The notes under the pieces were generated by a model, which worked only from the letters and a program-made list of their open reading frames with translations, was not told where the DNA came from and did no database searches. This document shows, in pieces, positions 4,209-34,456 of a stretch of 64,000 nt of DNA; the stretch's first letter is position 1; each line of letters opens with the position of its first letter. The stretch is from Xylogone sp. PMI_703. Lineage: Eukaryota; Ascomycota; Leotiomycetes. The DNA lies in contig JAJTUQ010000005.1 in assembly GCA_021399445.1 (NCBI GenBank), forward strand, positions 2,666,001-2,730,000. Reading direction: 5' to 3'. Made by a program: the position numbers and the translations under genes.

Positions 4209-5993
4209 ATGGTGAACCTTTTATTTCTTTGTTTTACTCTAGCTCAGCTATCTTCAATGCTGGCTTTTGCATCGAGTCCAGCAGAGGTCAATGCCAATCA
4301 TATATTTAACGCTGTTCATTCATCAATGCGCCAGTGGGGCTCTGCACTCCATTTCAACGGGATGTCTTTTTTTCCTGGACGCATTAGAGCTGGAGAGAAG
4401 TTCTTCCATGGCGCTTCCAATAAATCTGCGATCACTGGAATGGAATGGGTTGCATTTGAGCCCGAACACGCTCTAGTCTTTGCGTGGATAGCAAGCAATC
4501 ACGTTGATACCGGTGTTTTCATGCCTGGGATGGAGTGTCAGGCGGCGGTCTCAACCGTCTCATGTCCCAACTCGCCTCCAATGCAACAGAGCGGAACTCC
4601 AGAGAACGGAGCTCTAAGCAGTTCATCTGAGGTATGGCGCATACAGAGCTTTCCATCATGGCTTTTTGGTCGCCATCTGGTAGACCAACCGAGCAGTAGC
4701 AGCGGTCAAAAGGATAATATTGGAGATAGATCTATTGCTACAGCATCCAATCCATGCGTACAGAATGGCTATTTACACACTTATGTCACAAAGAGAGACC
4801 TTAACATTCTATATATCGATGGACAGGTGAGTTGTTTTCGTGGCCTGTTATCTGCCATTAGACTGCTTTGGAACATGCGATTTCTTTTGGACTTCGCGAA
4901 GCATTAGATATACTATACTCTTGACTTTTCTTAAAAGCTTTTTTTCATCTGCAAATCTTATCATGCTGACTCGAGGCCATGACAGTCATCGGCCAAAACA
5001 CTATTAGGAACTTTGGACACACAAATATACGTTCTAAATATGCAAAGTGCAACCTTTGAGCAAGATCAGTCTCCATATGCGGATTATCGCCGATTTGCAT
5101 ACTTCTGTCAGTTGGCAAATGAGAAATGGGGTCAGCGTATAGACGGCTTTATTCGCATGGAAATGGGATTTGAACTGATTTTGTGTGATTTCGACTCCAG
5201 CGTCCAAATCTCCGATGTTAAAAGGGCCAATGGAGAAGCTTGCGACTTTTTTATGAACCCTAGGTTTTATTCTTTCTTCTTCAAAACGGCCGCGACTAGA
5301 TATAATGGCTACAAAAAGGGGAAAGTCGTTCTAGACTATGAGAGGATGGTTACGGCCTTTTCCTATGAAGGCAATTTATTTCCCAACGAAACAAAGTTTC
5401 CAAGGCTAGCACACTGGCCTGTGTTTCAGAAGACGAAAATCTTTGCAGCTGTCGAGAAATCTATTATGGAAGATGTGCCAACAGATGGAGTCGATTGGCA
5501 GGCAATAACTGACTCGATCGTATCCAGGTACAGCGACTCACTGTATAGCCTTGCCCTAGGCGAGCGAATTACTTCAAAAGAGCAGATGAACTCTGATGTG
5601 AAATTATTGCTGCGTCCGTTCCGTGACTACGATTCCCCTAATACAACACTGGAGATCGAAAGTTGTACGAACCACTTCTTACCTACAGAATATTCATCAT
5701 CAATAGCAGCTGATGGAGTATATCAAATCTCGCACAGAATCTGTTCCACCTTATCATCAGCAATATCATTGAATTATAGCCAGGCCAGAGCGGCTTTTCA
5801 AGAGCTGGTAGACTATCTTGACTGGTCATCTTGGAAACAGTGCCGCGATTGCGAATATGACGAGGTCTGTTTCACGGCAATATGGCCATATGGAGAGTCA
5901 GAAGACCTCGCCTCTCCCAAGTGTAAGAATGGATCATCTCTTCGGGATATGAAAAATCATTTTTGGAATTTTACGGCCGTAACACATAATTAA
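4209..5993 (+). CDS. Secreted protein of unknown function, two exons
   Basis: Exon 1 is 4209-4826 and exon 2 is 4986-5993, joined in phase 0 across a 159-nt intron (donor GTGAGT, acceptor GACAG). The join restores the continuous stretch YIDGQSSAKTLLGTLDTQ; product about 541 aa. The N-terminus is a signal peptide (MVNLLFLCFTLAQLSSMLAFAS). The rest looks globular and soluble, with scattered Cys (CRDCEYDEVC near the end). I recognise it only as resembling uncharacterised fungal proteins with an LYIDG-SAAKT motif; no catalytic signature is evident. It lies between the M61 peptidase and the repetitive precursor and may belong to that locus, but this is unproven. Confidence 0.7.
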
Positions 5994-7041
5994 CAATTTC
6001 TAATGTTATTTTCTCGAAAAGAAATTTAACCTTACAAAGTATAAATAAATTACTGTTACCAAATTTCTGAGTATTTACGTTACAAGGAAAAAATATGTAC
6101 TCTGCTTTTTGAAATTCCTTTCTCTCTACAGAGACTAAAATTATGATTAAAAGTTTTAGTTGGTGCTACTGTATATTAAGTGATCAGTTATACCGGATAA
6201 TCGGCGAGACTAGAAATATCATATTTAAGGCCTGAATAATCAAAATGCTTGAATCATTATGCAGTGCTACGTTCGTGCAGGCGCCGGAAATAAGCCTCCG
6301 GTGGCTCGGTGCTTTACCAATTTGGGTGTAGTCGGTCGGACGGCCCGTGAATGTCTTACAGAGCACTAGCAGGGGATTGAATTGATCCCTGAACAACAAC
6401 CCTCTCTCGTAAAAGATGACGCCTTTTACAAGCAGGAGAATCCGATTGGGCTGTGGGCTGGAGCATGTAAGAATGGGATGCTTTAAATATAACATTAGCC
6501 AATTATTCTGCACAAAAGGAGGACTCCTGTGGTGCATAGGTGGTCGACAGGGACAAGCCCACATTAGGTTATTGTTCGTATAACCTAATGTGGACTCACT
6601 ATCCCCGTTAACCACGTAAAGAGCAGCTGATAAACTTTGAAACAGTAAGTAATATAGCACATATCACTTTTGCAATGAAGATGAATCCGAATCATTTATT
6701 GTAACATCGCTATCGTAAGTGGTCAATCATGAATTATACCATTCACTTCGAGAAAATATCAATAAGTAGTGAATGACTGATAAAACTCGGATTTTAAATA
6801 CGTTTAGCTAATGAAATGAGTGTTAAAGTGCAGCTAAGGAGGAAACTCAAATCCAACACGATCCACACATTCTCTGCAGATAACAGATATCCACATCTTA
6901 CTGGCTACTAATACTAAAACTAGGATAGTAACTATACGCGAACATTTCCAAGCTTGCTTAACACGGTCACCCTAAGTTCCATTCCTAGCACTCCAATCCT
7001 TCTGATGATGGTCATCTCATGACGAACAATCTTGCCCTTTT
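5994..7041. other. Intergenic, no supported gene
   Basis: AT-rich spacer between the secreted unknown and the peptide precursor. A 158-codon minus-strand frame (6184-6660) is low-complexity in composition, lacks a recognisable domain and has no splice support, so it is not called. Confidence 0.6.
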
Positions 7042-7560
7042 CTAATAGACGCTGTTATATACAGCAGTGAGTGGTTCATCAACTTCTCTCTTGTCGAGAG
7101 CATTAGAAGCGGTCTCTACATCCTTGCCATCATCTTCTCGCTTATAGACACTGTTATACACAGCAGTGAGGGGCTCGTCTTTTTCTCGACTGTAAAGGAG
7201 GTTAATGACACTCCCAACATCATTTTCGTCGTCTTCCCGCTTATAAACACTGTTATAGACAGCAGTGAGAGGTTCATCTTTTTCCCGACTGTAGAGAACG
7301 TTGAAAAGGGTCCCCACATCCTTTTCATCGTCTTCTCGTTTGTAAACAGTGTTATATGCAGCAGTGAGAGGCTCATCGACTTCCCGCTTATAAACAGTGT
7401 TATATGCAGCGGTCAGAGGCTCGTCCACTTCTCGCTTATAAACGGTGTTATATGCGGCAGTTAGAGGTTCGTCCTTTTCTCGATTGCTGAGCGAGACAGG
7501 AGCAGCTAAGACAATGCTCAAAATTGCCAAGCCGGCGGAGAGAGTAAATTGAGCACGCAT
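7042..7560 (-). CDS. Repetitive secreted peptide precursor with Kex2-type sites (candidate dikaritin/asperipin-like RiPP precursor)
   Basis: Intronless, 172 aa, ATG at 7560, TAG at 7042. Residues 1-20 form a signal peptide ending ...SIVLAAP; a short spacer ends in SNR at residue 27. Nine head-to-tail units follow. Six are of the type E(K/V)DEPLTA(A/V)YN(T/S)VY, at residues 28-43, 44-59, 60-75, 93-108, 126-141 and 159-172. Three are of a second type with EDD..DV, at 76-92, 109-125 and 142-158. Units end in KR, or in YSR for two second-type units; the last ends at Tyr-stop. A secreted precursor with repeated Tyr-containing segments between dibasic sites is the hallmark of fungal UstYa-dependent RiPPs (ustiloxin, asperipin-2a). 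Two UstYa-family genes and an MFS gene follow directly. The likely core is AYNTVY/VYNSVY; its exact borders and any cross-links are inference. Confidence 0.88.
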   Translation of the reverse strand: MRAQFTLSAGLAILSIVLAAPVSLSNREKDEPLTAAYNTVYKREVDEPLTAAYNTVYKREVDEPLTAAYNTVYKREDDEKDVGTLFNVLYSREKDEPLTAVYNSVYKREDDENDVGSVINLLYSREKDEPLTAVYNSVYKREDDGKDVETASNALDKREVDEPLTAVYNSVY

Positions 7561-8829
7561 ACTGAGTTGGTAAAATTGAAATAATATTGTAATGAGTTTG
7601 AAGATGCGAGTTATAATATATAGGACTGTGTATCTTAGAAATGAAACAACCTATGGTTTTCCCTAAAGCTCAGAAAGGTGCGACATTACAGTCTTTATAC
7701 TCGACACTGGCACTTCAGCTCTGGAGCTTAGCAGCAATTATCAGGACCGAAAGATTTGGAGCCCTACACTGGAACTCGGTATACGAGTAAACGCCTGTCC
7801 CACCTTTGGATTACGTTTTTTCCTGGGCTATGTTCATAATACCATAGTGGTTTTCCTAATGCGTAACCTTACATACACTCTCTGTGCCTCTGTTCAGGAC
7901 AAACTCAAGGCCCAGACGAATAGATCCAGGTGAATAGTTCTGAATGACCAATTGCTCCGGAATGACACTACTACATTCTCACGAATTCAAGGTGGATTCT
8001 GGGGTATTTTGCGAGGGATACTGGCAGCTAAACTTTGCATATCTTCATTTTAGGAGTACCTTATTGGGCAAGAGCATTCGAACTCCCACATCCTCTCAAG
8101 GTTACACCCCGAGGAGTAACCACCAGAGGAAGGAGCAAATTGATTTTCCCTAGTTATTGCTCATGGATGATTTGTACGGTCACTTTATCCACCCTATAGA
8201 TGTCAAAACTTGAGTATCGATAAGATTAGACAGGGATTTCAAAAATCACTGCAGGAACTGCGAAGGAACTTTTGACTATTTTAGGCCTTTTCGCGGAAAG
8301 AAGTACTCACGAGATCAGGGATTATGCATAAGATGAGGAGTAAGGATTAACTGGAGTGTTACGCTACTTTTATCACCGGCTTGGATGGATTGGCCTTTTT
8401 CTTTGTCTCCTAGGCTCATGAGTTCAGTTAATGCACATGAATAAGCATATTAATTAACTTGATAGTCTCGTTTAATCCACAATCATTATCCAATATCTAG
8501 TGATCTAAGATATATGATTATTACCTTCCTTGATAAGTAATATGTAGATAACCTATGGTCTGTATCACATGCCACCTGCCAATATTAGTAAATGTGGCAT
8601 ATACAGCTGTTAACTTGCATCTCAAGCCTGGTAACATGACTTACTAGTCCAATGTGTATTAACCCCTCTTTTCGAGAATCACACCATATCATACGTGCTG
8701 TCGTAACTGGATGTTTCATTTGAAGGTCTTACTTATGGAGGGACGAATACTAACGTGGTGATTTCTCTGCTTACAACACGCTGCCCACAACACAACAAAT
8801 CTAGATTTTACACTTGGCTTCACATTCAA
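7561..8829. other. Divergent intergenic region between precursor and first UstYa gene
   Basis: About 1.27 kb separates the start codons of two divergently transcribed genes and must hold both promoters. No ORF with support is seen; a 69-codon frame at 7944-8153 has no features. A shared regulator site could lie here, but no palindromic motif was clear by eye. Confidence 0.5.
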
Positions 8830-9887
8830 ATGGCATCTCCCGAATCAAAATACAGTCTCGTTAGTGATTCTGATACAGAGAATCAAGAAAATGATACATT
8901 TCTTCCAAATTTCTCTTACAAAGCTACTTCTCGACGCCGTATATGGCCTTGGATAATCCACTCGGTGCTTCTACTAACATCAGGTATATTGTTTATAATC
9001 ACTCTTACCCGGTATCCTAAAGTAGTGGGACCTATTGATTCAATAGAGCCAGGGTGGACACAGGAGTATAGTATGAAAATCTTTCTTCTAAATTAAAATT
9101 CGACGCTGATTTCTGAATAGGTGAGGCTGTTAATGCGGTGGGGCAAAGATTTGGCTGGCAGTATCTTGGAGAGTTTGGTCAACCCTCGATTTATCGTGGA
9201 CAACCAAATCCTGATCTTGATGCTGCATGGGAGGAAATTAGTGACTGTCAGTAGAAGTACTCTCTAGAGTGATTTGTCGTTGACAAAGAGACCTAGCTGG
9301 CGTTTTCTCAGTTACCGAAGAGGAGATGGCCCGAATCGGCAAACTTAGCAATAGTAGCGTTATGCTACCTCCAGAGGCAGGAGGTAACTACATGGCTTCA
9401 ATGGAAGCCGTTCATCAGATGCACTGTCTAGTGAGCTCTTCTGACAGATTTTATCTTGGATAAGTCTTCTAACACGAATTTGTAGAATCTTCTGCGAAAA
9501 TTTTCGTATAGAGAGTACTATGCAGATAAATCAGAGCATTTTGCACACCCAGGAAAATTTAGGATCCATCTGGGTAAGTAGAATGTTCGGCTTGAGTGAT
9601 AGAAAACTAGATTAATGTTAGTTGTAGATCACTGCATCGAAATGCTTCGACAGGTCATAATGTGTAATGCCGACCTTCACATCATTACTTATAACTGGGT
9701 AGACCAGGTCGATTATGCGTGGCCAAACTTTAATCTTAATAAACAGTGTCGAGATTTCAACGCCGTGATGGGCTGGATTCATGCACATGAGGCCAGAACT
9801 AAAGTTCCGGATGGAATATTACGACGACCTCCTGGTGCAGCGACAAAGCCTATAATTGCTGCGGAATATGTACATGAGGGATTTTAG
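8830..9887 (+). CDS. UstYa family (DUF3328) oxidative cyclase-like protein, copy 1
   Basis: Five exons: 8830-9070, 9121-9246 (or 9240), 9297-9430, 9486-9573 and 9628-9887, giving about 282 aa with all phases consistent. One transmembrane helix (IIHSVLLLTSGILFIITLT, about residues 42-60) follows a short cytosolic tail, as in UstYa proteins. The lumenal part carries the conserved YLGEFGQPS and AAW segments. It also has both family histidine/cysteine motifs: HQMHCL at the end of exon 3, and DHCIEMLRQ formed across the exon 4-5 junction. UstYa proteins catalyse oxidative side-chain macrocyclisation of RiPP cores in the secretory pathway. The neighbouring repetitive precursor is the obvious substrate. 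The donor of intron 2 is weak and ambiguous (GTGACT or GTCAGT). ATG 8830 is chosen because it opens the cytosolic tail directly. Confidence 0.88.
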
Positions 9888-10188
9888 CCTAGATATTGAC
9901 CGACCGAGTACCTAGGATTATAGCAACCTAACGAAGATTACCAACGGAAGATAAAGAAAGTAGTGAAGCTTGAGTCTTGAGAGAAATCACACCGACATCA
10001 GTATAGAAAATAAATCAATTCACGTTACTAGTATTAGTAGTGCACACACTTAATAATTGAAGTGACGCATATAACCATTACTTGCCAGATGTGCACAATA
10101 TATTTAGCGTATACAGAAGTCCTTGACTGGATTTTATTTATGAGTTTGTTTTATTTTAAATTCTCTCTAGCTACGGTATTCTTTAGTA
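9888..10188. other. Short convergent intergenic spacer
   Basis: About 300 bp between the 3' ends of the UstYa copy 1 gene and the MFS gene; AT-rich, presumably holds both terminators. Nothing else seen. Confidence 0.5.
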
Positions 10189-11679
10189 TCAATCCTTTGT
10201 CTCCTTCAAACAGAACACTGGAAATGTGGTCGGTAGAGTAATGGCCGCCAAAACCCAAAATGGAATAACAGAATAACCTCTGTTAACACCGTAACTGAAT
10301 AATGATCCACCAAGAAATGCACCAGTTGCTCTCGCAATCGCTGAAGTACTAGTAGAAATACCGGTCAACGTGCCCAGTACACTTGGGCTCGAAGCTGAGT
10401 GTGTAAGCAAAATCGTTGAGCATGGAAATGCAAATGTAGTTAGAAACCCATTCAGAAGCATCGAGAAGAACAGAGCTACTTGCTTTCCAAAGCTGTTAGG
10501 AGCTAGTAACACCACCGGAGTGAGGGCGTAAACAATTGGGAATATTGTAGTAACCAGTTTCAAGCAAGTGAGCACTCCACATTTCCCAGCAACAACTGGA
10601 AACACAAAAGATTGGATGAAAATGCAACTAATGCTGTATGCGGTGTAGATGATGCCGATTTGACTGGATGACATGCCAAGACCACCAGAAATATTGTATA
10701 GAAGCTTAGAATTTGAAGTATGTATATCTTGAACCGGATGATGCATGAACATTGGAAGTACTTGATCATAAGCCTGGCTGTGAAACGCCAGCAGGGTGCA
10801 GACAAGAAGATTTAAACTGGACTGTGAGGAAAAGACTTGTCGATATTTTCGTTCAAAATTTTCTTTCGATTCCCAAGTGTCGTCTAGATCGTCTCGAGAT
10901 ACACTTCTTAATACAAGAAGCGGCTTTAAGGACTCTTCGAGATTCCGGGTCTCTTTTCTCGGGCCTCGTCTATGATATTTCGAAAGAAATAACTTCCCGA
11001 GCATAAGCCCATAATCCTTTCTATTTTTCTTCGACTCAAGCGTCTCTTGTAGATAGAGAATCCCAGTAATAAGCCCTAATAAAAATATCGTAACAATGAC
11101 CAAGGGTGGTAGGATAAAAGGAAACTGTCCAAAAACGCTGCTACTGTGCCTGAAGATATGCGGATATTTCTTTGCTGGCTCCGCCAATAAACCACCAAGT
11201 AGGGAACCAAGAACGCTGCCCGTCATCCAGACAAGTGGCATAATACAGAATGCAAGAGGCCGTAACTTCTTCCGAGGAACCATCTCGCTAACTATGGCAT
11301 TAATAATACTCCCACTTGCACTTCCAGCTCCGCTTAAAGCCCTCACAGTTAACAGGAAGGGTAGAGACCTGCAGAGGCCAAGAAGAAGACTTGTAGTCAT
11401 GGCGATACTTAAACTTGCAATAAGAAGATACTTTCTTCCGAATCGATCACTCATTTGGCCCCAGATCATGCCGGTCAAACCTTGACTGGCTGAGAAGCTG
11501 GCATTAGCTATTCCAGCCCACTTGGCGACTGAATTCGTCGAAACGTTAAACGATTCTATCATATCTGGAAGATAGGGATTAATTGAAGACAAGGCGATAG
11601 GCTCTCCAAATCGACAAACGGCGAGGACAATTAATTGCTGAAGAGGTAATTCTGCCTCATTTGTGTTCACTCGGTCCAT
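10189..11679 (-). CDS. MFS transporter, DHA1-type, probable peptide/toxin exporter of the RiPP-like locus
   Basis: Intronless frame of 496 aa from the ATG at 11679; the frame is open 24 codons further without another ATG. It has 12 hydrophobic segments in two groups with a hydrophilic central loop of about 80 residues. The MFS motif A is present as WGQMSDRFGRK between TM2 and TM3, and the antiporter-type region ALSGAGSASGSI is in TM5. It resembles the fungal YCR023C-like multidrug carriers. It sits between the two UstYa genes and converges on the first, as expected for the export gene of a peptide pathway. The cargo is inferred from position only. Confidence is high for the family and moderate for the role. 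Confidence 0.88.
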   Translation of the reverse strand: MDRVNTNEAELPLQQLIVLAVCRFGEPIALSSINPYLPDMIESFNVSTNSVAKWAGIANASFSASQGLTGMIWGQMSDRFGRKYLLIASLSIAMTTSLLLGLCRSLPFLLTVRALSGAGSASGSIINAIVSEMVPRKKLRPLAFCIMPLVWMTGSVLGSLLGGLLAEPAKKYPHIFRHSSSVFGQFPFILPPLVIVTIFLLGLITGILYLQETLESKKNRKDYGLMLGKLFLSKYHRRGPRKETRNLEESLKPLLVLRSVSRDDLDDTWESKENFERKYRQVFSSQSSLNLLVCTLLAFHSQAYDQVLPMFMHHPVQDIHTSNSKLLYNISGGLGMSSSQIGIIYTAYSISCIFIQSFVFPVVAGKCGVLTCLKLVTTIFPIVYALTPVVLLAPNSFGKQVALFFSMLLNGFLTTFAFPCSTILLTHSASSPSVLGTLTGISTSTSAIARATGAFLGGSLFSYGVNRGYSVIPFWVLAAITLPTTFPVFCLKETKD

Positions 11680-12767
11680 CTCTGGTGGGTTTGCTAAGTG
11701 GTAGAATTGGTGATAGAATTGAGGATTCTTTGAGAACGCATACTGGCTCACTGGATGTTCCAGCTGTTTGAGGGTAAATTACATTCGTAATACACCATGA
11801 TTTTTACCAGAAGGAAGTTATTATTTTACGGAATCGCTACTGTACAGCAAGGTCGTAAACATTACTCGGCATTATGAGCTTACTGCTATGCACTTACCTT
11901 AACCAGCTTAGGAAAATGCATTCGTCTTAATGCTTGTCTCATGGGGCGCTCGTAGCATAAACATGACGTGCTTATCTATTAGATTAACTACCCTACTCAT
12001 ACCGGAGGGTCCAGGGCCCTCGGACGCTCGGAATCCGCTCTACCCTTTCCCCCCGTCCTTTCTACCCACTATCGAATGCTGTATTACCTCGCAAAATTTC
12101 CGAAACGCCCTATGGATGCAACTATCATGCCAGCTAAGGGTGGATTCCCGCATCCTCACTACAGTTTGTTACTAACCTAATGCGGACTCTGTTCCGTATC
12201 CGCACTCCCACTGGTCTGCCTCACAAAGTATCCCATATCAGCTCAAAAGTGAATGCACGATCATAATTACTTAATTGAGTTACTTATTACTTGGATATGC
12301 GAAAAAACAGATTGTTATACGAACCCCCTGTACTCATATTAATAAACCAGATAAGCTGTATCTTTCCAGCCAGTTAGAGCTGCTGCGTACGATGTATCGA
12401 GTCTTCAAAGATGCGCAAGACCTGTATGAGAATGCGAATATGGAAAGAGACTAACAGGATAAAAAAGGAAGGTAGAAGTCGGAAATAAGTCTACGGTATA
12501 GAGTAAAGTGGAAGGTACGAATACGCGTTCTTAGGAACAAAGGGGGAACAAGAAAGTCTGGATTTTTCATAGAGGCTAATATGGGTATATTGAGTCATTG
12601 ACGTGATTTTGCTTACTTGACATCCATGCGTTGATTTTGGTCTTTGTACCGTTCAGTTTGTGTAGATTGTAACAGATGCTTTACATAGCTTCTGTCAACT
12701 GAATCTGATTTTATCAAGAACCTAACATCTACAACTGACTGCTATCTCATTTGACGAGACTCACTTT
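11680..12767. other. Divergent intergenic region (MFS / UstYa copy 2)
   Basis: About 1.1 kb holding the promoters of the minus-strand MFS gene and the plus-strand UstYa copy 2. A short C-rich patch lies near 12000-12060. No supported gene. Confidence 0.5.
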
Positions 12768-13805
12768 ATGGAGACCCCTTCTAATGACTCTGATCAGGTT
12801 GCAAGCTCCAAGTTACACGGAAGACTGGCCTCGATCTCAGGCAATAATGGAAGATGGCATAGTGACCCTAATAAAAAGAGAAGAATGATAGATTTAAGTC
12901 AGCCTCGCAGACATCTTTCCATACGCAAATGGGGTCTAATATTAAGTTTGTGGTCACTGTCCATTCTCGCCACAGCTTGGTTTTCGGGGAGGGAGGGAGC
13001 CTCGCCATTCTCCTATGAGACGGGATTTGACACAGACCTCCGTGAGCACTTCACCAGCCAACTAAATCTTTTCTAGACGAGAAGCTTAGCTTACAACTCA
13101 GTGATTAGAGCCAATACGACCTTTCATCGAGCTCAAGAGGGTTAAGTTTACCGGAGGCATTAAGTTTGATGAGAATGGAACGACCTACCGTGCCGTTGAT
13201 CCTGAGGCTGTCCAGTATGTTGGGGAACCTAGTGAAACAATAGATCGTGCTTGGCGGCAATTGATCCGTGGTATGTTCAGACAATTTCCTACATGCAAAG
13301 TATATTAATCGTCTCTTCTCCCTAGGAGAAGGTGTTGACCTCATCGAAGAAGAGGCAAAGTCTGTTGTCGGGAAAACTTATCAAAAGTCAGGAGTCTGGT
13401 GGCAGACGGGTGCTGATGTCTTTCATCAATTGCACTGCATTGTAATTTTCTCTACGATGGGATTTGTTCTCCAGAATTGAGCTAACAAGCCGGCCAGAAT
13501 CTCCTACGTACAGCTCTTCGTCCAGACTATTACAAACCTCTCAACCCGGAACCGTTACATACAGAACATCTATGTAAGCTCTCTATTTCTCCGAAAGGTA
13601 TCCAACTTACAAATCTTCAGATCATTGTATTGACTACCTTCGTCAAGGGGTCATGTGCAGTGCTGACCTGACACCACTCCCTTTTGAATGGGCTGATATC
13701 AGAGGTCGTATCATTCAAATCCAGGAAGTAGTTCATACATGCCGAAATTTTGATAAAATTCACGAATGGTCTCTGGCAAGGAATTCTGATGCACATAAAG
13801 TCTGA
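12768..13805 (+). CDS. UstYa family (DUF3328) oxidative cyclase-like protein, copy 2
   Basis: Five exons: 12768-13041, 13109-13270, 13326-13441, 13498-13573 and 13621-13805, all with GT-AG borders and consistent phase; product 270 aa. A basic cytosolic tail of about 55 residues precedes one transmembrane helix (WGLILSLWSLSILATAWF). The lumenal domain shows FETDL-like YETGFDTDL, VKFTGGIKFDENGTTYRA, VQYVGEPSETIDRAW, then the two family motifs HQLHC (end of exon 3) and YHCIDYLRQGVMC (across the exon 4-5 join). All expected UstYa segments are intact. Its exon layout matches copy 1 in number and in the two introns next to the HxxHC and HC-LRQ motifs, so the two are paralogues. Multi-step dikaritin pathways commonly need two UstYa proteins. 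The second ring or second core type could be its task; this is inference. Confidence 0.9.
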
Positions 13806-32991: not shown

Positions 32992-33916
32992 TTAATCTCT
33001 ATTCCATCCTATAAGATCTAAGACTAATAAATTCTTGTTGATGATATCATCTTTCTTTTCCTTAAGCTCTGCAACATCCCAATTTGCCCAAACTAGCCTT
33101 CCTGCCAGGAAAGTTGCTTCAGGGCTTGCTAGCCACACAGCAAATGCCCCTGGTAGTTCGACTAAGTCGTAGTTCATTAGAATTCATTCTGTAATTTACA
33201 GATAAGTGAACGATCTTACCATCATCTTCGGTAACAGCATGGCCGTCCGCATTCATAGCCGTTGCCACAATCCCTGGACTAAAATTGAAAACTTTGATTG
33301 ATGGATGTTCTTTTTGAACATGTTCTAGGACTTTCAACAAGGCTGATTTTGAAGGTCCATACGATGAATAGCCATTGATGGAGATATGCGCCAAAAAGGT
33401 TGTGACATTGATAATTATGGCGTCTTGATTCGCAACAGACAGAAAATGTTTGATCACATTGTAGCTGCCTCTGACATTGATGTCAAATGTTAACCACCAC
33501 TTATCAACGTCCGAATCAACAAGCGATTGCACCTCGGGCAGAACAGCTGCATTATTCACAAGAATATCAAGCTTTCCGAATCGCTTTTTAACAGCAGCGA
33601 CTATTTCTAAGACAGATTGAATATCTCGTATATCATTCACAAAGCTGTCTACCACAGTATCCGATTTGATACTTCGAGCGTGATCCTCGAGTTTAGATCT
33701 TGTTTGCTGAAGTGTAGATTCTGTTCGCCCGGTTATAATCACAGCAGCTGCTTGAGCGGTCACAAAAGCTTCTGCAATTGCAGCCCCAATCCCTTGATTG
33801 CCTCCTGTAACCCAAACAACCTTACCTTTAGCAGAGAGACTCGGCTGCGAAGGATCAATGGCGGGATAAAGCTTGTGATGGTACGATTTTGTGAATGATT
33901 TTCCGAGAGCAGACAT
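32992..33916 (-). CDS. Short-chain dehydrogenase/reductase (classical SDR)
   Basis: Two exons, 33916-33220 and 33161-32992, with a 58-nt intron; the acceptor TTAG at 33162 gives VELPGAFAVWLASPEA in frame. 288 aa. The cofactor motif TGGNQGIG lies at about residues 38-45, NNAA at about residue 117, and the catalytic Tyr/Lys pair in YSSYGPSK. FSPGIVATAM and FLAGRLVWANWDV match the fungal classical SDR C-terminus. TGR after strand 2 suggests NADP(H) preference. Substrate unknown. The intron also contains a premature ATG-containing frame, which explains a false short downstream frame. Confidence 0.87.
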
Positions 33917-34456
33917 CTTGAGAGTAGTTTTCCCCCTATAAATATTATTCTTTTATGTTCCCGGAAACGCGATTCTACAATAAGCTCGTAATGTCGATGT
34001 GATTGTCTCGATAGGCAGTCGACGGGACGACGAGGCACTTGGAAGTTATAAACTGCACCATAGTGTAATGTGCAATCTCTCTTTATTTAATGCTTTGTAA
34101 GTTTTCGGCTTTAGTTTGCTTAACAATAACTACAGCTCCACAAGAAGTTGCAGTTTACAGGTTTGGTATCATAAGGATACCTCGCAAATTCTTTCCTTCA
34201 TGGCCACTAGTTCATACTAGTTTGAGCCGCGGACTTAATTTCCTAGTGATTACGCTATATGATTGGTTACATTTCTAGACACTAGGAAGCTCGCCTCCAA
34301 TTGAAATAATGGTAGAAGACGCTAGCTGCAGTACTAGGAGTATGATTGGACAAAAAGTCAATTCCTACTTCTCAGATCATTGCGGGTATTCCCCTATAAT
34401 TACTTTCTATGGCTAACTTTGAATTCAATAATTGATTCAAATAAAAAATAAAAATC
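33917..34456. other. Intergenic, no supported gene
   Basis: About 540 bp between the SDR start and the permease 3' end; contains the SDR promoter; no features recognised. Confidence 0.5.

Follow-up and report, generated by a model that had tools for sequence, protein, structure and literature searches.

A compact, probable UstYa (DUF3328)-type peptide gene cluster with an apparently new tyrosine-containing core in the fungus Xylogone sp. PMI_703

The window discussed here, by which we mean the whole stretch of 64,000 nucleotides that was analysed, represents positions 2666001-2730000 of contig C21 in the genome of Xylogone sp. PMI_703 (50.1 Mb in 25 contigs), a member of a genus that is classed in the Leotiomycetes. 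Listing of open reading frames (ORFs), splicing and Pfam searches place four genes within 6.8 kb of this window: one for a precursor protein made up of repeats, two for proteins of the UstYa (DUF3328) family, designated UstYa-1 and UstYa-2, and one for a transporter of the major facilitator superfamily (MFS), which sits between the two UstYa genes on the opposite strand. We describe these genes as a candidate cluster for a ribosomally synthesized and post-translationally modified peptide (RiPP). In window coordinates they are:

7042-7560, minus strand: precursor gene, intronless, for a Kex2-type repeat protein (KEP) of 172 residues (ORF, repeat alignment, hydropathy, tandem-repeat search)
8830-9887, plus strand: UstYa-1 (DUF3328/PF11807), 282 residues, five exons, introns at 9071-9120, 9247-9296, 9431-9485 and 9574-9627 (splicing, Pfam)
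10189-11679, minus strand: MFS transporter, 496 residues, a probable exporter (PF07690)
12768-13805, plus strand: UstYa-2 (DUF3328/PF11807), 270 residues, five exons, introns at 13042-13108, 13271-13325, 13442-13497 and 13574-13620 (splicing, Pfam)

UstYa-1 starts 1.3 kb from the precursor gene, and both UstYa genes lie at most 6.3 kb from it. A preliminary description of this DNA had placed two intact UstYa/DUF3328 genes, an MFS exporter and the precursor at these positions, all inside 6.8 kb, and this inventory holds: each UstYa gene reads through five exons once four short GT-AG introns are spliced out, and the MFS protein matches PF07690 at 1.1e-30. The MFS protein has one further match in its own genome at E<=1e-40, with 43% over part of the sequence, among the 86 of 115 candidates that were scored. 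Comparison of the spliced UstYa proteins with the hidden Markov model of PF11807, the check that the preliminary description had proposed, puts both far above the cut-off of 25 bits (UstYa-1 at 6.3e-53 and 180 bits, UstYa-2 at 3.2e-39 and 136 bits).

Each of the two proteins carries two HxxHC motifs, HQMHC and HLDHC in UstYa-1 and HQLHC and HLYHC in UstYa-2, and alignments of chosen matches (34 and 32 sequences, respectively) show the residues of these motifs to be either invariant or conserved to 90% or more. Each also has one predicted N-terminal helix of membrane-spanning length (residues 39-65 in UstYa-1 and 47-76 in UstYa-2). The spliced products are identical over 100% of their length to the hypothetical proteins F5884DRAFT_859835 and F5884DRAFT_859837 of Xylogone sp. 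PMI_703. Proteins of the DUF3328 family are described as having a dicopper site for oxidative changes, for example the ether between a Tyr oxygen and a Phe beta-carbon in asperipin-2a (PMC12186524, in the part of that paper used here).

The precursor has a strongly hydrophobic N-terminus that probably represents a signal peptide, a call made from hydropathy only, and continues with nine repeats arranged as A A A B A B A B A, i.e., six of type A and three of type B. The components of the precursor, of which the repeats were defined by repeat alignment, are as follows:

7501-7560, minus strand: probable signal peptide, about residues 1-20, with the cleavage site placed by eye (hydropathy peak of 2.6 at residues 9-19)
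7336-7479, minus strand: type A repeats 1-3, E[K/V]DEPLTAAYNTVYKR
7285-7335, minus strand: type B repeat 4, EDDEKDVGTLFNVLYSR, which ends in SR instead of KR
7237-7284, minus strand: type A repeat 5, EKDEPLTAVYNSVYKR
7186-7236, minus strand: type B repeat 6, EDDENDVGSVINLLYSR, which ends in SR instead of KR
7138-7185, minus strand: type A repeat 7, EKDEPLTAVYNSVYKR
7087-7137, minus strand: type B repeat 8, EDDGKDVETASNALDKR, with KR retained but Tyr lost
7045-7086, minus strand: type A repeat 9, EVDEPLTAVYNSVY, which terminates at the stop codon

The type A consensus is E[K/V]DEPLTA[A/V]YN[T/S]VY, in which Tyr10, Asn11 and Tyr14 are constant in all six copies and the two Tyr have three residues between them (i, i+4). 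The type B repeats, with the endings FNVLY, INLLY and SNALD, look like a diverged form of the same repeat. Across both types the Asn is constant (9/9) and the last Tyr is kept in eight of the nine copies. The nine repeats and, for type A, the Tyr-containing core YN[T/S]VY (6/6) are thus as first described; the picture of KR at every boundary and Tyr in every core is not, for the precursor has KR at six places (residues 42, 58, 74, 107, 140 and 157), SR at the ends of two repeats (91 and 124), NR (26) before the first repeat and a stop codon after the ninth, and repeat 8 reads SNALD. With cutting only after KR, the type B repeats 4 and 6 would stay fused to the following type A repeat in pieces of 33 residues.

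At the DNA level the array consists of 48-base units followed by 99-base units of one B and one A repeat. A chance origin of this array is not a serious option, because its tandem repeat scores are 342 and 211 and because no match appeared in the shuffled control of a scan for KR-repeats that is explained below. Comparison of the type A repeats in 15 pairs, which are not independent of one another, gives a proportion of synonymous differences (pS) of 0.602 versus 0.081 for nonsynonymous differences (pN), and the values for codons 4-14 are 0.551 versus 0.048; by this measure the amino-acid constraint on the type A repeats is strong. Since they differ from each other by 12-24% of their bases, recent copying is no explanation for the near-equality of the encoded proteins. 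The three type B repeats are looser (pS 0.73, pN 0.21).

Because of this gene content (precursor repeats, two UstYa genes and an MFS gene), a UstYa-dependent RiPP cluster is well supported, and we put the probability that the locus is a compact cluster of the known Kex2-repeat/DUF3328 class at roughly 0.78. Its product is likely to be a UstYa-modified peptide. A survey from 2020 (PMC7329392) reports 7878 KEPs, which come from 1345 of the 1461 fungal strains, along with 2560 stand-alone types. Of these KEPs, 1758 have DUF3328 neighbours, with an average of 1.7 DUF3328 genes each, and Tyr is more frequent in repeats with DUF3328 neighbours (65.6% versus 38.2%). A single precursor is also said there to carry more than one repeat type often. 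Given these mixed repeats, the number of DUF3328 genes per locus and the number of types, a new core accompanied by two DUF3328 genes and by more than one kind of repeat is to be expected of the class. Like the KEP/DUF3328 loci of the survey, the Xylogone locus has DUF3328 at most a few genes away from a repeat precursor, here with a hydropathy-based signal, six KR and a UstYa-1 start 1.3 kb away. The core itself looks new, as the preliminary description had proposed: the strings AYNTVY, VYNSVY, YNTVYKR and YNSVYKR were found in no main text of the fungal papers searched (the sole match was in an unrelated public-health paper), and the precursor is also without a relative in the protein database, as detailed further on.

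By analogy with characterized members of its family, the cluster might operate in the following way. The precursor would enter the secretory pathway, where kexin would cut after KR to release peptides ending in YN[T/S]VY, and the two membrane-anchored UstYa proteins, presumed from their family to act as copper oxidases, would cross-link side chains. A side-chain-linked macrocycle is probably the result. As a first guess, the bond would link the C-terminal Tyr, through its phenol oxygen, to the beta-carbon of the fourth residue back, which is Tyr in type A and Phe or Ile in type B; the second UstYa protein might then make a second bond or carry out a desaturation or hydroxylation, and the MFS protein would export the product. 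A kexin P-domain is represented in the genome by one partial match; its frame contains one stop, for which an intron could account. Since Tyr, Phe and Ile each offer a possible beta-carbon, a bond from the Tyr oxygen to that position may be common to most of the repeats, although repeat 8, with Ser and Asp at the two places, could not form it. Ile has been reported as the partner of Tyr in ustiloxin and phomopsin, and the beta-carbon of Phe in asperipin-2a, whereas no Tyr beta-carbon partner was seen in the accounts consulted. A Tyr-O-beta-carbon ether in the product stands at somewhat less than even odds, and it is unlikely that one promiscuous UstYa pair joins the C-terminal Tyr to Tyr, Phe or Ile over the invariant Asn and so makes mixed i,i+4 cyclophanes of an undescribed kind.

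The constancy of the Asn, which is the sole position among the last five that is the same in all nine repeats, also lends itself to a different modification by the UstYa proteins, i.e., desaturation, hydroxylation, a carbon-carbon link or a cross-link through the Asn itself. There are precedents for such chemistry in the cited portions of the literature: DUF3328 enzymes hydroxylate and chlorinate in other pathways (PMC12048977), they install dehydroamino acids in phomopsins according to the title of a reference cited in PMC12186524, and the link in victorin runs from a Phe side chain to a Leu (PMC9233826). However, ustiloxin, asperipin-2a and phomopsin are described as cyclised through a Tyr ether (PMC7329392), and the retention of the last Tyr in eight of nine repeats favours a role for that residue, so that we regard these other modifications as rather doubtful, while still to be reckoned with, for a UstYa-modified peptide from this locus.

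Relatives of the two UstYa proteins were sought among candidates sharing words with the query, so that a missing relative is weak evidence in what follows. Among the matches listed, UstYa-1 has seven full-length relatives in six strains, at 52-59% identity and 96-100% coverage, namely in Anthostomella pinea, Xylariaceae AK1471 (twice), Xylaria FL0043, Nemania NC0429, Xylaria multiplex and Trichoderma austrokoningii. It is closer to these proteins of other fungi than to the paralogues of its own genome, for which the best long match is at 35% (with up to 49% over 51 residues). UstYa-2 has listed relatives in Nemania, Xylaria, Anthostomella, Trichoderma and others, and relatives of both genes are among the matches listed for three of the six strains named above for UstYa-1. 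In Anthostomella pinea the pair is tagged 064230 and 064250; the contigs given for the two tags are equal in length, and the numbering leaves room for one gene between them, as in Xylogone (the UstYa-2 model is longer there, with 463 residues), and in Nemania NC0429 both relatives are on a contig of 162,415 bases, taken as one contig. By these tags and contig sizes, the two UstYa genes seem to be linked in both of these fungi.

This apparent linkage bears on whether the repeats might be released as unmodified linear, pheromone-like peptides, with the UstYa genes belonging to some other pathway. The survey cited above provides some room for such an arrangement, inasmuch as DUF3328 neighbours are missing from 6120 of the 7878 KEP genes and accompany three KEPs of the pheromone type (PMC7329392). 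All the other pheromone-type KEPs are reported there to be without DUF3328 neighbours, however, and two UstYa genes that lie within 6.3 kb of the precursor and look linked elsewhere make the release of linear peptides improbable.

Trees were built from 13 of the 28 UstYa-1 matches and 18 of the 43 UstYa-2 matches. In the former, Xylogone falls within a clade of eight of the 13 rows (support 100/99) together with Xylariaceae and one Trichoderma, the inner order being weakly resolved; in the latter, it joins a Torrubiella protein of 181 residues (100/97) that covers 64% of the query. Horizontal transfer was considered from both trees and no claim is drawn from them.

Several observations weigh against a UstYa-dependent RiPP cluster. 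According to the cited part of PMC12048977, DUF3328 proteins also chlorinate and hydroxylate, and work outside RiPPs. Pfam searches found no match to a tyrosinase, methyltransferase, S41 peptidase or isoflavone reductase among the 40 proteins scanned, 38 of which were hand-picked open frames of the window, a selection that short-exon genes could escape. KR is missing from two of the type B repeats and Tyr from the third. Among the matches listed, three of the six strains with a full-length relative of UstYa-1 have no UstYa-2 match, several strains have UstYa-2 only, and the Trichoderma austrokoningii pair is on separate contigs of 7,484 and 33,606 bases. Finally, the precursor has no relative at E <= 1 (4767 candidates from 5.8 billion proteins). 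Since the Xylogone precursor itself is without a match, its gene seems to be absent from the database annotation.

Some of these points could be accommodated by a decaying cluster in which the type B repeats represent cores that are failing and the precursor gene is being lost: no type B repeat has a C-terminal Tyr and KR together, and the precursor is without a match in a database that contains both UstYa proteins of this fungus. The strong constraint on the type A repeats and the intact state of the other three genes argue against decay and make it very improbable, and a working UstYa-type cluster remains the reading that we prefer.

The position of such a cluster among known systems can be stated as follows. 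In the five-gene definition of the dikaritins (Ding et al., as told in PMC12048977), a repeat precursor and multiple DUF3328 proteins are accompanied by a tyrosinase, a methyltransferase and transporters or peptidases; the Xylogone locus has a leader with repeated cores, two DUF3328 genes and an MFS transporter. A later definition (Montalban-Lopez 2021, as told in PMC12048977) asks for DUF3328 with two HXXHC motifs, which both UstYa proteins have, and the locus fits this definition and not the five-gene one, the 40 proteins scanned having yielded neither a tyrosinase nor a methyltransferase. The clusters for ustiloxin and phomopsin are reported to share with it a signal peptide, KR-flanked repeats and two or more DUF3328 genes, whereas they contain a tyrosinase and a methyltransferase, and their core Tyr is followed two residues on by an Ile that is absent from type A. 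Asperipin-2a of Aspergillus flavus (aprA, aprY, aprT, aprR) likewise comes from a compact four-gene set with a Kex2-repeat precursor, UstYa and a transporter, and its core ends in Tyr (PMC6514808); that set contains a single UstYa gene and one like an isoflavone reductase, and its core reads FYYTGY (PMC6514808, PMC7329392), in contrast to two UstYa genes, no isoflavone-reductase-like gene seen in the 40 proteins scanned and the core YN[T/S]VY in Xylogone. A short-chain dehydrogenase is encoded at 33122-33952, about 19 kb from UstYa-2. The locus is not an asperipin cluster, and the likeness to asperipin-2a that had been suggested for it extends to the C-terminal Tyr and the four-gene set but not to the UstYa number, the reductase or the core. 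The gene set suggested as that of the ustiloxin, phomopsin and asperipin type (precursor, DUF3328 genes and transporter) is borne out, and the scan just cited yielded no tyrosinase, methyltransferase or isoflavone reductase. The epichloecyclins (gigA, Epichloe) also derive from a multi-core Kex2-type precursor, and a Tyr-Ile cross-link has been proposed for them; theirs is a nonapeptide core with an N-terminal Ile and an internal Tyr, unlike the C-terminal Tyr of Xylogone (PMC9233826).

The window locus is one of several such loci in Xylogone. The genome has a large repertoire of PF11807 sequences (108 exon-level matches, which are not to be read as genes). A scan for KR-flanked, self-similar repeats was applied to 36 sequences, comprising 24 stretches of 10 kb (of which 23 surround a portion of the UstYa matches and one is beside the window), further loci and the window. 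It gave 10 rows, which represent six different genes after two pairs of same-gene rows from overlapping loci were merged and two antisense rows dropped; one mononucleotide shuffle of the 36 sequences gave no match. The six genes include the window precursor, and a UstYa match is found 1.4-3.7 kb away from each of them; the count is no measure of enrichment since the stretches were picked for UstYa. When copies of the window precursor were sought in its own genome, the two weak matches (E 0.19 and 2.9) proved to be other Kex2-repeat genes near UstYa matches and were rejected as copies. The five further genes are:

L010 1366-2151 (C21:1747161-1747946): Kex2-repeat precursor of 261 residues, 13 repeats ending in LLYGYG-KR, UstYa match 1.4 kb away
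L012 4071-4646 (C1:1010570-1011145): Kex2-repeat precursor with DFAEPLLGE-type units, UstYa match 1.7 kb away
L019 9493-9999 (C1:8103992 on): Kex2-repeat precursor with SPKYEDYEV[S/T]KR units, incomplete at the end of the stretch, between UstYa matches
L022 834-1112 and L024 9378-9620: a pair of related genes with repeats of PQYRNADW-KR and AQFSNKDW-KR and with EA-rich spacers, UstYa matches 2.8-3.7 kb away

An upstream frame with a signal-like start at both L022 and L024 makes a separate first exon likely for these two genes. The ORF L011 92-853, which adjoins the L012 precursor, has the motifs HFQHC and HVHHC, yet is outside the UstYa match list. The repeats of the window precursor, L010 and L012 are otherwise different but have in common a PL[L/T] stretch, which is possibly a recognition motif for an enzyme, or due to chance.

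Beside the cluster, the window contains at 4209-5990 two ORFs of 232 and 326 residues, the first with a signal-like start and neither with a Pfam match, which perhaps represent a single gene for a secreted protein. A near-perfect inverted repeat of 17 bases is found at 6556-6596, with one arm copied a third time 5.6 kb further on (12173-12189). A partial second copy (75%) of the stretch 6240-6640 lies on contig C20, the one such copy in the genome, and no second copy of the stretch 11900-12280 was found. It is possible that the marks at 6556-6596 and 12173-12189 are traces of a mobile element.

New cores are common in the Kex2-repeat/DUF3328 class, which comprises well over a thousand predicted loci (1758 in the survey as cited from PMC7329392), and this kind of pathway is known in many fungi. 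What the Xylogone locus adds is a compact, intact example with an apparently new core, in a class of which few products are known. Its mixed A and B repeats represent a natural test of enzyme tolerance, and the existence of two UstYa genes with relatives in several fungi opens the division of labour between DUF3328 enzymes to direct testing. If the promiscuous joining of the C-terminal Tyr to Tyr, Phe or Ile were true, the UstYa pair of the Xylariaceae and Trichoderma would define a family of i,i+4 products.

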